A DNA stretch of 64,000 bases from a bacterium (lineage in GTDB: Bacteria > Hinthialibacterota > Hinthialibacteria > Hinthialibacterales > Hinthialibacteraceae): assembly GCA_016125385.1 (NCBI GenBank), contig WGLV01000022.1, positions 310,001 through 374,000 of the forward strand, written 5' to 3'. A program made the translations under genes and the position numbers. The notes beneath the pieces were generated by a model. It saw only the letters and a program-made list of their open reading frames with translations. It ran no database searches and was not told the origin of the DNA. How positions within the stretch are numbered: the first letter of the stretch is position 1; the number at the start of each line of letters is the position of its first letter. Shown in pieces: positions 2,965-32,893 of the stretch.

Positions 2965-3153
2965 TGAGACCCTCCCGAAATCGATCCATTTCCATACAAG
3001 AAATACACCAAACGCCGGGCCGGTTTCAATCCTCACGCCTCGCTCCGGCTATCGATTGGCGCGAGTTGACGCTTCCCCTGTTTTCGCGCTACTTATAGGA
3101 TTGGTTCGGTTGAATTGTATGAATGCGGTGAACGAAGGGGGCCAGTCACGCGT

Positions 3154-3765
3154 ATGGATACCCGGCGCGGTGGATTTACCCTGACGGAATTGCTGGTCGT
3201 GGTGGCGATTATTCTGATTCTGGCGTCGATCGCGTTGCCGAATTTTCATCATGCCCAGATCCGCGCCAAGGTGTCGCGCACGCAAGCCGACATGCACACG
3301 ATAGAAATCGCGCTGGAGTCGTATCATATCGATTGCGGCGCGTACCCGCCCTGGACGCAGAACCTCGTAACAGAAGTCGACGACCGTCACCCCAACCAGA
3401 TTCGCTATTACCGCATGACGACGCCTACGGCGTATCTATCCGAGATTCCCCGCGATCCGTTTTCAACGCGCGCCAACGCCTTTGACTGGGAGCGCTGGGG
3501 ATGGGGTTATGATTACGTGGATGCGTTTGATGAGAAAAATGGTCTGGTCGATCCCGACGCGTGGGGGCACGTCTGGCGAATCAACAGCTGGGGACCCGAC
3601 TCGACCAACGGTTTCGCGGGACGGTATATCGGTTGCGTGCGCGGCCGGCCCGAGTTTTTGTACTCACCCACGAATGGGCTGACCAGCGCGGGCGATATCC
3701 TGCGCGTGGGGCAGCGAGGCGGTCCGTTTCTGGATTACTACTGTCCGATTCCGAACGGGAGTTAA
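3154..3765 (+). CDS. Type II/IV pseudopilin (prepilin-type protein)
   Basis: MDTRRGG precedes FTLTELL, a class III prepilin peptidase site with cleavage after Gly7 and Glu at mature position 5, followed by a ~20-residue hydrophobic helix and then HHAQIRAKV. The C-terminal half ends with the family motif SPTNGLTSAGDILR, shared with three other pseudopilins in the window. An in-frame ATG 39 bases upstream would put 13 extra residues before the leader; the later ATG gives a normal short leader. The role is a subunit of a short periplasmic pseudopilus in a type II secretion-like machine. It precedes a hydrolase gene by 18 bases. Confidence 0.85.
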   Translation: MDTRRGGFTLTELLVVVAIILILASIALPNFHHAQIRAKVSRTQADMHTIEIALESYHIDCGAYPPWTQNLVTEVDDRHPNQIRYYRMTTPTAYLSEIPRDPFSTRANAFDWERWGWGYDYVDAFDEKNGLVDPDAWGHVWRINSWGPDSTNGFAGRYIGCVRGRPEFLYSPTNGLTSAGDILRVGQRGGPFLDYYCPIPNGS

Positions 3766-21787: not shown

Positions 21788-22378
21788 GTGGCTGTCATGG
21801 AAAAAAGAAAAGCATTCACTCTAATTGAGTTGCTCATCGTGGTCGCGATCATTGGAATTCTGGCCGCGATCGCGGTTCCCAACTTTTTGAACGCGCAAAT
21901 GAGGGCCAAAGTGGCGAAGGCGGAATCGGAATTACGTACGCTCTCAACCGCGCTGGAATCTTACAGCATTGACAACAATATGTACCCGCCGTGGGTGAAT
22001 GAGAACGGCGTCGCGCGAAACGGCGGCGGGCTGGGTATCAGTTTCCGTTACCATGCGCTGACCTCGCCGGTGTCATACCTTTCGTCGGTTCCGATCGATC
22101 CTTTCATCGATCAGAAAAAGGAAAATCAGGACGCCGTATATGACACCTACGATTACGTTGACGCCTGGTCGACCATTCACTGGTTAAAGGCGACCAGTCT
22201 TGGGAACTCGTTCCGATGCGCGGTATGGCGCGCGGCCAGCGCCGGACCCGATTACACGATGACGTATGGCAGCGCGTTCACCTATTCGCCTTCTAACGGT
22301 TTGAACAGTTGGGGCGATATTGTGCGGCTTGGACCGAGGGCGTCTTTCCCCTGTGACAAGTCGCTGGTCGGGAAATAG
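21788..22378 (+). CDS. Type II/IV pseudopilin
   Basis: 196 aa from a GTG with AGGAG five bases upstream; an ATG three codons later is the alternative. The leader MEKRKA precedes FTLIELLIVVAIIGILAAIAVPNFLNAQMRAKV, near-identical to the 19421 product, again with Ala at -1. The C-terminal half carries SAGPDYTMTYG and SPSNGLNSWGDIVR, then a variable tail with one Cys. It is followed by a terminator and a W-A-L-Y exported protein. A subunit of a short pseudopilus is expected. Confidence 0.88.
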   Translation: MAVMEKRKAFTLIELLIVVAIIGILAAIAVPNFLNAQMRAKVAKAESELRTLSTALESYSIDNNMYPPWVNENGVARNGGGLGISFRYHALTSPVSYLSSVPIDPFIDQKKENQDAVYDTYDYVDAWSTIHWLKATSLGNSFRCAVWRAASAGPDYTMTYGSAFTYSPSNGLNSWGDIVRLGPRASFPCDKSLVGK

Positions 22379-24091: not shown

Positions 24092-27000
24092 TTAATCGGA
24101 TTCTTGTGGTGGAGGAGTTCGGGTGAGCGCGCTTCGAATCACCATCGCCAGTTGATCGGGGGAGAATGGCTTTTGAAGGAAGACCGCATCCTGCGACGCA
24201 ATCGTCGAATTATCGATGATATCCATCGCATAACCCGACATGAAGACCACGCGGGCTTCTGGATGGGCGTCACGAACACGAGTGGCGACTTCGGGACCAT
24301 TCAGACGAGGCATGACCACGTCAGTGACGATTACGTCGATTTCATCCTCTGTTTCGCGGGCGATGCGAATCGCGTCCGCGCCGTCCTGAGCCAAAATGAC
24401 GGTGTAGCCGAATGAAGAAAGAGAATCGCTGATCATTCCGCGAACGGCCTGTTCGTCTTCGACCACCAGAATCGTTTCATGACCGAGCACATCGTGTTGA
24501 ATATCGCTCAGGGCGACCTCCGGTTTGGGGGAATTCAAGGCGATAGGGAAGAAGATTTCAAATTCGGTTCCGATGCCTTCGCGGCTGTAAACGCGGATCG
24601 CGCCCCGGCTCTGTTTGACGATTCCATAGACGGTGGCCAGTCCGAGGCCTGTTCCTTTGCCGACCTCCTTTGTGGTAAAGAAAGGCTCGAAGATATGAGA
24701 GCGGACGGCCTCGCTCATTCCCTCTCCATTGTCGGAGATACCAAGCAGGACGTATTGGCCGGGCGGCAGGGAGAAATCGCCGAATCTCAGTTCCCGCTCG
24801 AGAAACGTATTTTCGGTGCGAATACGGATCGCGCCGCCGGATGGCATGGCATCGCGGGCATTGATGGCGATATTTAAAATGACCTGCTGAATCTGGCCCG
24901 GGTCGGCTTCGATGGCCCGCAGGTCATCGCCGGGCAGTATTTCGAGTTCGATGTTTTCAGTGATCAGACGCTGCAGCATCTGGGTCATATCGTTGAGAAT
25001 CTGGTTGAGGTTGATTCGCTCGGGCTGAAGCAACTGTTTTCGGCTGAAGGCGAGCAGTTGCTGGGTCAGTTTGGCGGCGCGTTGTCCCGCCTCAAAAATC
25101 TGTTTCAACGGGATGGCGCCGGGATCATCAGGCTCTTTTTGGTTCAACAGGAGTTCGCTGTAACCATTCACGACCGTCATCAGGTTATTAAAGTCGTGCG
25201 CGATACCACCCGCTAATTGTCCAACGGCTTCCATTTTTTGAGCGTGACGCAATTGCTCTTCGAGAGACTGTTTTTCTTCTTCCGCTTTCCGGCGGTCGGA
25301 CACGTCATGAATCAGGGCGAGGACATACTCCGCCACCCCTTCGCTGGAGCCAATGGTTTGGAGGTCGGCTTCGCAATACAGGACCTGCCCCTCTTTTTGT
25401 TGAAACCGGAGTTCAAAGTGATGCTGCCCTGAGACGTCGAGCGCCTGTTGAAAAGCCTGGCGGCCTTTTTCGGCCTCTTCGGGATGCAGGGCGGCGAGCC
25501 AGTCCGAGGATAACAACTCCTGACGGCTGTATCCCAACAGATTGATCAAGCCGGGATTGACCTCAAGCCAGCGCCCTTCAGGCGAGCAAATCGCCAGCCC
25601 CATGCTTGGGATTTCAAAATAACTGCGGAAACGTTGTTCGCTGCGGCGGATGCGTTCTTCATTGATCTTGCGTTCGGTGATGTTCTGAACCGCGCCGATG
25701 ATCGAGCAGTTGTCATTGTCGCAAACCGGAGAGATTTCAGCCTGTTCAAATACCCAGAGCTGGACGCCATCGGGCCGCAGCAGGCGGTGGTCCATCATCA
25801 GTGGGGTTTTTTGTTTGCATGCTTCGTCAATCGCGATTCGAAGCGCTTCGCGGTCGCCGGGATGCGTGAACTGGAGATAGGCGCCGAGAGTGTGCGGAAA
25901 CGAATCGGGTTTGATTCCGAGGAGTTCGTACACATAACTGGAGAGCTCAATGCGCCGCGTGTTGCAGTCAAGCAGCCACGTTCCGAACTTGGCGGTGGTT
26001 TGGGCTTTCTCCATGATGTAGCGGTTTTCTTCCAGCGCGCGCGTTCGAGCCTGAACGATGGTTTCCAGATTCTGGTAGGCTTCATTCAGTTCCCGCTTCG
26101 ATCGCAAGGTGAGAAGCGTCAAGCCAAACATGGCGAAAATGGTCAGCAGTACGCCTAAACGAAAGGCGGGAATTTCCTGAAGGGGCGTCGGATTTACGGT
26201 GAAGCCGAGGGCGATGGGCGTCCCATCGGTTTCTCCCTCCGCATTACGCGCTTTGACCAGGAGAGTGTGTTCTCCAATGCTGAGCGTATCCGTATCGATT
26301 TGGAGCGTGGACTGAGGCGAAAATTCAGACCATTCGCCGCCGTCGAGAGACCATGAGAAAACATAAGATCGTATGGAATCGCCGGGAGCGAAGCGGCGGC
26401 GGTCGGAAAAATGGAATTGAGCGTTCTGGCCCCGTAAAATCCGGGAATCCGCGATCGTGGCGAATGTTTCGGGCGGTGATTTAATCGCGTTATAGCGGCA
26501 GGTTCTGTCACCGATGTTAACCCACAATTCATTTTCAATGGGCGCTTCCAGACCATTGATCGATCCCTTCTCCGGGAACTGTATCCTCAGGGGACGCCAG
26601 TTCGTGTCTTCACTGATATGGAAAAGGCAGTTATCACCTCCAAAGATCAGGGCGCTATGTCCCCAGCGCATGCAGAAATCATGGATGTCGGCGTTGAATT
26701 CTGTCCAATTCCCATTCTGCCAGTGTACGATCCGGCCTTGATTTCCCGCAGGTCCGGTTACCGCGAACCAGTAATCATCTTGCCCGTATTCGATCATGCC
26801 GAAGACGATCTGATCCGTAAATTGATCGAAGGCCGTCCACTCACCGGTTTGGTCATCGCGCCGATACAATCCGCATTGACCGAAAAGCCAGAGATTGTTC
26901 AGGGAATCGACTTGAATATACGGGGTGTGAAGATTGAGCAGGCCAGGGGGATTCGAAATGGTAGTCCAGGTTTCATCGCTGGCATTTCCCAGAATCCAAT

Positions 27001-27976
27001 CGTGATCCCGTTCTCCCCTGGCAATGAACCATGCGGAGCCATCCTGAGCGGCCACACGGGAAAAAATACGTTTGCCTTGCAATTGGGGCGGCGTAATACT
27101 CGACCAGCCGCGCTCTTTAGTATAGTGAGATAAGGTCAACTGCCGAAAGGAGTCGAAGCCCTCAGCCCACGTTTCGCCACTTAGACTGGAGCCGATCCAG
27201 TTCGTGTCGTGGAGGCCCGTCTGTTCCGGTCCGAACACCGTTTCTTTTCCATCATCCCAGCGGACGATTCGATCGCCGTTCCAACCCCATACCGTGTCTC
27301 CGCCATGCGTCATCATGTAGGAATGGTTCGGGTCGGCGACGTTCCATGTTTTACCCTGCTTAATGATCGTCTGATTGTCGCCACTGAACCATATTCGGCC
27401 CTGCGGATCGGAGGTGGCAGGATGAGGCAGATTTTTATAAACCCGCCATTCAAAATCGCCGGGATTCCAACGAGTGAGCAGGTTATACCCGCCCGCCCAG
27501 ACGCTGCCATCGGGGGCCTGTACGATACACTCGATATCTCGCGCGGACGACTGGATCGGGGGTGAGATTTCTCTGGGCGCCTGTCCGGTTAGCGTACAGA
27601 AAGCTCGGCGATTCTGATTGATGTTTAGATTGGTGACGACTTGGCTATTGAGGGAAATCGCCAGACAGGGCGATTCGAGGCTCTGACGAGTTTTTAACCA
27701 GTATCCAACCTGATTCTGATAAAGCCCTGAGGGACCATACACCCATAGCGAGCCATCCGGCAACTCACCCATGGATTGGAAGGGTTCATTTTCATTCACG
27801 ACTTTGTCGCCACGAAACAACGGCGACCATTGGCCTTGTTCAAACGTTACGACGCCTGAATCAGTTAGAATGTACTCTTTGCCGTGTGAGTCGCGGAAAT
27901 AATCCCACACATATTCACTCGGCAGCCCGTCCTTCACGGTGAATGACTTCCACGTTCCGTCTTTATAATGGCTCAA
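24092..27976 (-). CDS. Two-component hybrid kinase, large C-terminal fragment of a TGA-interrupted gene
   Basis: 1294 codons from a TTG; the same frame continues upstream through TGA at 28019-28021 into the signal-peptide part, so this is most likely the 3' portion of one gene. Order: reg_prop-like propeller blades (1-510), Y_Y_Y-type beta-sandwich (~515-600), one membrane helix (~608-628), coiled coil, two PAS domains, HisKA (GGIAHDFNN), HATPase (IAINARDAMP, SDNGEGM, GTGLGLATVYG) and receiver with VIVTDVVMPRLNG. The architecture is that of periplasmic polysaccharide sensors. Without the upstream part it lacks a signal peptide, so export and sensing would fail. Confidence 0.8.
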   Translation of the reverse strand: MSHYKDGTWKSFTVKDGLPSEYVWDYFRDSHGKEYILTDSGVVTFEQGQWSPLFRGDKVVNENEPFQSMGELPDGSLWVYGPSGLYQNQVGYWLKTRQSLESPCLAISLNSQVVTNLNINQNRRAFCTLTGQAPREISPPIQSSARDIECIVQAPDGSVWAGGYNLLTRWNPGDFEWRVYKNLPHPATSDPQGRIWFSGDNQTIIKQGKTWNVADPNHSYMMTHGGDTVWGWNGDRIVRWDDGKETVFGPEQTGLHDTNWIGSSLSGETWAEGFDSFRQLTLSHYTKERGWSSITPPQLQGKRIFSRVAAQDGSAWFIARGERDHDWILGNASDETWTTISNPPGLLNLHTPYIQVDSLNNLWLFGQCGLYRRDDQTGEWTAFDQFTDQIVFGMIEYGQDDYWFAVTGPAGNQGRIVHWQNGNWTEFNADIHDFCMRWGHSALIFGGDNCLFHISEDTNWRPLRIQFPEKGSINGLEAPIENELWVNIGDRTCRYNAIKSPPETFATIADSRILRGQNAQFHFSDRRRFAPGDSIRSYVFSWSLDGGEWSEFSPQSTLQIDTDTLSIGEHTLLVKARNAEGETDGTPIALGFTVNPTPLQEIPAFRLGVLLTIFAMFGLTLLTLRSKRELNEAYQNLETIVQARTRALEENRYIMEKAQTTAKFGTWLLDCNTRRIELSSYVYELLGIKPDSFPHTLGAYLQFTHPGDREALRIAIDEACKQKTPLMMDHRLLRPDGVQLWVFEQAEISPVCDNDNCSIIGAVQNITERKINEERIRRSEQRFRSYFEIPSMGLAICSPEGRWLEVNPGLINLLGYSRQELLSSDWLAALHPEEAEKGRQAFQQALDVSGQHHFELRFQQKEGQVLYCEADLQTIGSSEGVAEYVLALIHDVSDRRKAEEEKQSLEEQLRHAQKMEAVGQLAGGIAHDFNNLMTVVNGYSELLLNQKEPDDPGAIPLKQIFEAGQRAAKLTQQLLAFSRKQLLQPERINLNQILNDMTQMLQRLITENIELEILPGDDLRAIEADPGQIQQVILNIAINARDAMPSGGAIRIRTENTFLERELRFGDFSLPPGQYVLLGISDNGEGMSEAVRSHIFEPFFTTKEVGKGTGLGLATVYGIVKQSRGAIRVYSREGIGTEFEIFFPIALNSPKPEVALSDIQHDVLGHETILVVEDEQAVRGMISDSLSSFGYTVILAQDGADAIRIARETEDEIDVIVTDVVMPRLNGPEVATRVRDAHPEARVVFMSGYAMDIIDNSTIASQDAVFLQKPFSPDQLAMVIRSALTRTPPPQESD

Positions 27977-28018
27977 GCCTCCCCGGTCTTTAGCGCTGGG
28001 CCATTTATCACAGCAAAA

Positions 28019-28459
28019 TCATAATCCACCATCGGCCGCCTGATGGATGCGGCGTACGCTTTGACCCGCCAACCCGGTTTGCGAGCCGTGGGTGTAGAAT
28101 TTTTTTTCGGAAGGATCGAACTCACCCGCGCCCTGGTCCGTGCCGATCCATACGCGCCCATCGCTGGTGACGCATACGCAACGTACCATTGAGGACGGGA
28201 GTCCGTCATCTTCAGTGAAATGACTCCAGTCATAGCCGTTGAAGTAAAAAAGGCCGTTTGACGATGCGACCCACGCTGAAGAATCGTCCTCAAAGTCGAT
28301 ATAGAACACTCTCTGGCCATTGAGTTGGATCTCATTGAGATAGGAAGCGACGCTGAATTTCGATTGAAGTACGACGGGCTGAAAAGGTTCATTTTCCGAT
28401 TGTGAAAATGAGGTGAGGGAGAATAAGGACAGAAAGAAGAAAAACAGAGAAAATTGCAT
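28019..28459 (-). CDS. N-terminal fragment of the interrupted reg_prop hybrid kinase
   Basis: 146 codons: signal peptide (MQFSLFFFFLSLFSLTSFS) then two propeller blades, SSAWVASSNGLFYFNG and GRVWIGTDQGAGEFD. It stops at TGA directly after AADGGL. In the other blades the position is Trp (SAWVAS, RVWIGT), and the frame after the TGA continues the blade (FCCDKWPSAKDRGGL then SHYKDGTWKSF). A TGG-to-TGA change is the simplest reading. The product alone would be a secreted stub. Confidence 0.75.
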   Translation of the reverse strand: MQFSLFFFFLSLFSLTSFSQSENEPFQPVVLQSKFSVASYLNEIQLNGQRVFYIDFEDDSSAWVASSNGLFYFNGYDWSHFTEDDGLPSSMVRCVCVTSDGRVWIGTDQGAGEFDPSEKKFYTHGSQTGLAGQSVRRIHQAADGGL

Positions 28460-28595: not shown

Positions 28596-29168
28596 TCATG
28601 GTGCGACTGGTTCAACGAGGGGTTGCTTGATGGTATACCAGCCACCACCGGAGACGCGATGCAAATCGCCCCGGCTGTAAAGGCCGTTGCTGGTTGAATA
28701 GGTTTTTCCGCCCCATTCCAGATCGGGGCCGATCGCATAAAACACCCAGCCTCCTCCCGCGCCCTGGCTCCATTCCGGCGTATTTTCATATCCCATGCCG
28801 AGCAGCACGCGCAGATAGCCCCGGTCTCCATCGAATTCGTGATAATGGGGGAATCCATAAGCGGGCCATTGAGCGACGAGACCACCTTTTCGCTGGAAGG
28901 GATCAATGGGGCGGCTGGATAAATAGGCGATGGGCGTGGTGGCCCAGTTGTTTTGGGTTTCGCAGTCGCAGTGATCGGGCGAGATATTGTTGTCGACGCG
29001 GAACATGGCGGCCGCCTGATCGAGCAGGCGCATGCTCTCGACGGTCTGAGAGACTTTGGCGCGCATCTGGGCCTGGAGGTAGTTAGGCACGGCGATGGCC
29101 GTGAGAATGCCGATGATCGCGGCGGCGATCAGTAATTCGATAAGCGAAAACGCACGGCGGCGATTCAA
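28596..29168 (-). CDS. Type II/IV pseudopilin
   Basis: 190 aa from a TTG that has GGAGG eight bases upstream; an ATG seven codons earlier (29189) has no ribosome site. The leader MNRRRA precedes FSLIELLIAAAIIGILTAIAVPNYLQAQMRAKV, with Glu at mature position 5. The body has an extra Cys pair region (DHCDCETQ) and the C-terminal motif YAIGPD then STSNGLYSRGDLHR, a variant of the GDI motif of its relatives. It follows, on the same strand, the W-A-L-Y gene at 29252-30700. Confidence 0.85.
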   Translation of the reverse strand: MNRRRAFSLIELLIAAAIIGILTAIAVPNYLQAQMRAKVSQTVESMRLLDQAAAMFRVDNNISPDHCDCETQNNWATTPIAYLSSRPIDPFQRKGGLVAQWPAYGFPHYHEFDGDRGYLRVLLGMGYENTPEWSQGAGGGWVFYAIGPDLEWGGKTYSTSNGLYSRGDLHRVSGGGWYTIKQPLVEPVAP

Positions 29169-29190
29169 CGAACGGGCCTCCAAGTCCATA

Positions 29191-31150: not shown

Positions 31151-32893
31151 TCAATCGACGAAATCGCGCAGTTTGCGGCTGCGGATGGGGTGGCGCAGTT
31201 TGCGCAATGCTTTGGTTTCGATCTGGCGGACGCGTTCACGGGTGACGCCGAAGCGGTTGCCGACCTCTTCGAGGGTACGCTGATAGCCGTCGCCGATTCC
31301 AAAACGAAGGCGCAACACGGTTTCTTCACGCTCGGTCAGCGTTTTGAGAACCTGTTCGACCTGATCGTACATCATCGTTTCTGAGGTTTTGTTTGAAGGC
31401 GATATGGCGTTTTTGTCTTCAATGAAATCGCCGAAATGAGTGTCGCCGTCGTCGCCCACAGGCGTTTCAAGTGAAATGGGCTGCTGGGCGATTTTGAAGA
31501 CGCCACGCACCTTGTCGACCGGCATGGCGATGTGTTTTGAAATCTCTTCGGGAGTCGGCTCGCGGCCAAGTTCCTGGACCATGCGGCGGGAGATGCGGGT
31601 GATCTTGTTGATGGTTTCGATCATGTGGACCGGGATGCGAATCGTCCGCGCCTGGTCGGCGATGGCGCGGGTGACGGCCTGACGGATCCACCAGGTGGCG
31701 TAGGTGCTGAACTTGTAGCCGCGGCGGTATTCGAATTTATCAACCGCGCGCATGAGACCAATGTTGCCTTCCTGAATCAGGTCGAGGAACTGCAAGCCGC
31801 GATTGGTGTAGTTCTTCGCGATTGACACGACGAGACGGAGGTTGGCTTTGACTACGTCCATCTTGGCCTGATGGGCGATTCGTTCGCCTTCGCGGATCAT
31901 CTCATACGTACGGGTGAACGAATCGGGATCGTCGTCGAGTTCTTTGAGACTTTTGGCGAGACGCTCTTGAGCGCGAGCGTAGCGCTTTGAAATTTGCAGC
32001 AGGTCTTCGCGATTTTTGCCGGTGCGCTTTTCGAGCTCACTGCGACCGAACGTGGTGTTGCGCAGTTTGCGGAAAAACTCCTCCAGTTTGGAGGCGGACA
32101 GTTTCAAGCGTTTTTCGATGGAATGAATGTCATTGCGCGCTTCCTGGATGCGGCGTTGAAGCGCGACCATTTTTTTCGCGATGCGCCCGACTTGTTCATG
32201 ATCGAGTTTCATCGAAATGAGCAGATTGCCGAGGCGTTGCTTTTTTTCCTGAAGCGTCTTGGGATTTTTTCTGGAGGCGCGGCGTTCGTATTTAAAGACC
32301 TGGGTTTGATCTTTATGGAGCTGAGCGAGTTTTGCTCGCAGGTCTTTGAGCACCGTGTCGCGATCGAATTCGGCGAAATCTTCTTTCAGGTCGAAGTTTT
32401 GAATCATGTCTTCGGCCTTGGCGCGGCCGTTTTCGAGGCGGTCGACCAGTTTGCTGATTTCGCGGAGACCGGTCTTGCTCTGGGCCAGCGCGCGGCATAC
32501 TTTGAAGCGGCCCGATTCAATTCGCTTGGCCAGTTCGATTTCCTGTTCACGGGTGAGCAGGGGCACGCGTCCCATTTCGCGCAGGTACAGGCGCACGGGA
32601 TCGTCGACCCCGATGCGTTCTTCATGATACTCGTCTTCTTCTTCCTCTTCGGCTTCGGCGTTGCGCAACTGTTTTGCGTCTGAGGCGGTCATCTCATAAT
32701 CATCGACGACGGGAATTTCGAGGTCGTTCAGCGCGATGAACATGTCGTCGAGTTCTTCCACGCTCATCGCCTCGTCGTTGATCATGCGATTGACGTCATC
32801 GTATGTCAGGCGGCCGTTGCGTTCTCCCAGTTCGATCAGCTTGCGGAATTTAGGGTCTTTCTGCATTCCTTCGAGGGGTTTCTGCTTCGCCAT
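31151..32893 (-). CDS. rpoD: Primary RNA polymerase sigma factor (sigma-70)
   Basis: 580 aa. Residues 1-60 resemble sigma region 1.1; an acidic run (81-92) precedes [12 protein letters not shown] (region 1.2). Regions 2.1-2.4 are complete ([41 protein letters not shown] in overlapping pieces), then region 3 and region 4 with [18 protein letters not shown] as the -35-binding helix-turn-helix. A group 1 housekeeping factor; the non-conserved region between 1.2 and 2.1 is about 190 residues and rich in charged coiled-coil sequence. Monocistronic. Confidence 0.96.

Follow-up and report, generated by a model that had tools for sequence, protein, structure and literature searches.

The locus raises the question of why the gene for a giant sensor kinase carries a TGA within its reading frame, at a codon where tryptophan is expected. 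An earlier note on the window (the whole 64,000-nucleotide stretch of DNA analysed) offered four options, namely a nonsense mutation, a phase-variable or mixed population allele, programmed readthrough, and a sequencing or assembly error. The reading frame, the homologous genes, the decoding of TGA in the genome and the state of the downstream sequence have been considered in turn.

Reading frame and domain order of the interrupted gene

On the minus strand, positions 28021-28019 read TGA (GGT GGA TTA TGA TTT TGC TGT with the neighbouring codons), and the interrupted residue lies within the propeller blade motif DGGL-W-FCCDKWP. The open reading frames on its two sides, 28019-28459 and 24092-27976 (minus strand), share a common frame (28459-27976 = 483 = 3 x 161). 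When the TGA is read as Trp, a single protein of 1455 residues is obtained from 28459-24092 with zero further stops. The ORF coordinates and this single read-through protein thus bear out the earlier claim that the two parts are in the same frame, with no frameshift between them. The features of the gene are listed in Table 1.

Table 1. Features of the interrupted sensor kinase gene (window coordinates; residue numbers refer to the read-through frame).
Feature	Position	Strand	Basis
Propeller-type hybrid sensor histidine kinase, whole frame, 1455 codons, one interruption	24092..28459	-	
Predicted 146-residue product 5' of the stop: signal-like N-terminus and first propeller blades	28019..28459	-	N-terminal hydrophobic stretch judged by eye
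Reg_prop repeat PF07494, residues 86-108	28136..28204	-	Pfam
In-frame TGA, codon 147, conserved Trp position	28019..28021	-	Sequence and homologue codons
Downstream open part; earliest possible start TTG, 14 codons past the stop	24092..27976	-	
PAS_3 domain, better of two PAS matches, residues 966-1046	25322..25564	-	Pfam
HisKA phospho-acceptor domain, residues 1080-1142	25034..25222	-	Pfam
HATPase_c domain, residues 1186-1306	24542..24904	-	Pfam
Response_reg receiver domain, residues 1330-1441	24137..24472	-	Pfam

The read-through frame displays, in order, a signal-like N-terminus, a Reg_prop beta-propeller, PAS domains, HisKA, HATPase and a receiver. The Reg_prop match (E 2.9e-15) is over the Pfam cut-off, as are HisKA (PF00512), HATPase_c (PF02518) and the receiver (PF00072), all in one chain, and the sensor part matches by sequence the solved propeller sensors 4a2l (E 1.6e-21) and 3v9f (E 6.6e-20) of the PDB. 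The propeller sensor kinase anatomy proposed earlier is therefore correct, and the interrupted gene is a member of an already known sensor kinase family. The Bacteroides-type Reg_prop hybrid two-component sensors represented by 4a2l and 3v9f likewise carry HisKA, HATPase and receiver domains after their propeller repeats; unlike them, the present kinase has PAS domains between sensor and kinase, and a stop at codon 147. A further difference concerns the Y_Y_Y domain, for which Pfam reported no match near the membrane segment up to E 1, and of which a diverged copy may still be present.

Hybrid sensor kinases are abundant in the family, with at least 39 matches to the kinase query (E <= 1e-10) in the organism's own genome and many propeller-type paralogues in one family genome of another genus.

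The interrupted codon in homologous genes

The codon aligned to the TGA is TGG (Trp) in 13 of 13 homologous loci, none of which has a stop in the aligned stretch, and the motif WFC(C/S)D occurs at the site in 11 of them. Judged from this alignment, the Trp at the site is nearly invariant, and genes of the family do not end there. The claim that the TGA occupies a Trp position is thereby upheld; a stop where intact homologues have a sense codon is also what a pseudogene made by nonsense mutation would show. Two further genera of the family have full-length homologues, 34% and 32% identical, and the organism's own genome has a paralogue at 31%; all of these run without a break over the whole length, and together they rule out a chance adjacency of two ORFs. 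The earlier note had held that relatives split at the same place would count against its reading. No such split occurs among the 13 loci, and the closest full-length relatives in this comparison are about 34% identical and belong to other genera.

A functional division of the gene into two translated parts, the second being a 1294-aa kinase initiated internally, has also been considered. A strong SD-like GGGGAGG (duplex energy -11.0) stands before the TTG at 27976 and speaks for such a start. However, this element ends only 1 nt from the TTG, which is too near for normal initiation, and it is part of the coding sequence of the conserved Gly-Gly-Leu. A product of the second part would moreover start within the propeller and have no signal peptide, and none of the relatives compared is divided at this point. 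The internal propeller start, the lack of a signal peptide and the 1-nt spacing make a functional split improbable, and from the sequence the two halves are unlikely to be separate functional genes.

Decoding of TGA and the question of readthrough

The use of TGA elsewhere in the genome has been examined with regard to recoding. In 1.25 Mb of the organism's own genome, long ORFs end most often in TGA (288 TGA, 221 TAA, 73 TAG), and the role of this codon as a normal stop, claimed earlier, is also evident in the window, e.g. in gene 104-1501. RF2 is intact, with prfB scoring 521.7 bits against a cut-off of 370; the protein shares 69% identity with the RF2 of a MAG labelled Candidatus Omnitrophota bacterium Ch114, an approximate indication of lineage only. 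A UCA anticodon was absent from the 44 tRNA genes detected in the genome, and the single tRNA-Trp has the anticodon CCA with a fully paired 5-bp anticodon stem (GCUGA/UCAGC), A9 and G24, positions 9 and 24 having been assigned by eye on the cloverleaf. The reading of UGA is promoted by a 4-bp anticodon stem, A9C and G24A in tRNA-Trp (PMC13092985); none of these suppressor features is found in the tRNA-Trp(CCA) of this genome. The check for a TGA-reading tRNA proposed in the earlier note has thus yielded only an ordinary tRNA-Trp.

Recoding of UGA to Trp through tRNA-Trp(UCA) or a 4-bp-stem tRNA-Trp(CCA) (PMC13092985) has in common with this locus a TGA where Trp is expected. Unlike in those systems, RF2 is normal here, the tRNA-Trp has a 5-bp stem, TGA is the commonest stop and only one such site has been seen. 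Further stops were flagged among the 39 kinase matches in the genome; those re-examined fall where a domain or gene naturally finishes, or past it. Nothing indicates that TGA is decoded as an amino acid in this organism, and recoding lacks support; the lineage is documented to use TGA in its standard meaning. A codon-score scan for same-frame ORF pairs over 1.25 Mb returned mostly neighbouring genes starting soon after a stop, or antisense frames; the scan was too insensitive to list the present gene itself, and so gives no firm rate of nonsense mutation.

Selenocysteine insertion is unsupported as well, since matches to selB and tRNA-Sec in the genome are all below cut-offs, and neither a SECIS-like hairpin nor an Rfam match was found after the stop. 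A structured readthrough element likewise has no support, as the RNA 3' of the stop folds no better than shuffled sequences (z 0.34 to 1.48) and matches no Rfam family.

These observations also bear on programmed or elevated UGA readthrough, in which Trp or another residue would be inserted to give regulated amounts of the full-length kinase. In its favour are the position of the stop at a conserved Trp, UGG having UGA as its nearest codon, and the full conservation of the frame downstream. It is opposed, however, by TGG in place of TGA in the homologues, by the presence of RF2, by a tRNA complement with an ordinary tRNA-Trp and no detected UCA anticodon, by the sub-threshold SelB and tRNA-Sec matches and by the shuffle-like folding of the downstream RNA. 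Readthrough of this kind is considered very improbable, and it is hardly credible that the UGA serves in this lineage as a regulated site setting the amount of full-length sensor kinase.

Origin of the stop codon and its consequence for annotation

The state of the sequence beyond the stop has been used to judge the age of the lesion. Departures from near-invariant columns over residues 148-800 number 6 of 61, as compared to 1 of 57 to 12 of 60 in the relatives; the value is within the relatives' range, so decay is not advanced. Within the sensor part, the codon-score profile is also alike 5' and 3' of the stop. With the gene otherwise open and conserved as in the relatives, the sequence points to one recent lesion, or else to a wrong base in the consensus.

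An error of consensus or assembly, the organism truly having TGG and an intact gene, would account for a lone base difference as the sole defect in a gene whose remainder appears functional, and the preserved kinase half is expected equally if the true codon is TGG. The genome is, moreover, a draft of 77 contigs (5.5 Mb, 95.8% complete). Against this, the site lies in the interior of a 427,691-base contig (the window being its positions 310001-374000), away from its ends, the change is not a homopolymer indel, and no near-identical copy is available for collapse, the next best copy being only 31% identical. The existence of another intact copy elsewhere in the genome is unsupported. An error is thus regarded as possible but rather unlikely. 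On account of the long contig, the nature of the change and the lack of a near-identical copy, a real nonsense allele is favoured, a preference over consensus error which is a judgement and not a measurement.

A recent nonsense allele, either fixed or one of several in the sampled population, is accordingly the preferred reading, with a probability of about two in three. The allele would have arisen when TGG (Trp) at codon 147 became TGA, a coding-strand transition from G to A. Translation would end after 146 residues, inside the N-terminal propeller and ahead of the membrane segment and of the PAS, kinase and receiver domains, so that signalling is probably abolished by the allele. A trace of full-length protein may still arise by background misreading, as at any UGA. 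Among the four options, the nonsense mutation (fixed or as a population allele) and the sequence or assembly error remain, while readthrough and phase variation are unsupported; a phase-variable switch has no visible basis in the sequence, the change being a substitution and not a change in the length of a repeat tract. Bacterial nonsense pseudogenes likewise have one premature stop in a gene that is intact in all other respects, and nothing distinctive is added here.

Gene callers will divide the locus into a fragment of 146 aa and a kinase of 1294 aa whose start is wrong, although it is one interrupted gene; beyond annotation the importance of the finding is little. The window also contains three type IV pilin-like genes with a prepilin N-terminal motif, of which 21788-22378 and 28596-29189 are confirmed by NCBIfam TIGR02532 and 3115-3765 was identified by eye. 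Near the broken kinase gene, at 31151-32893 on the minus strand, the primary sigma factor RpoD is encoded, with a match above the NCBIfam cut-off.
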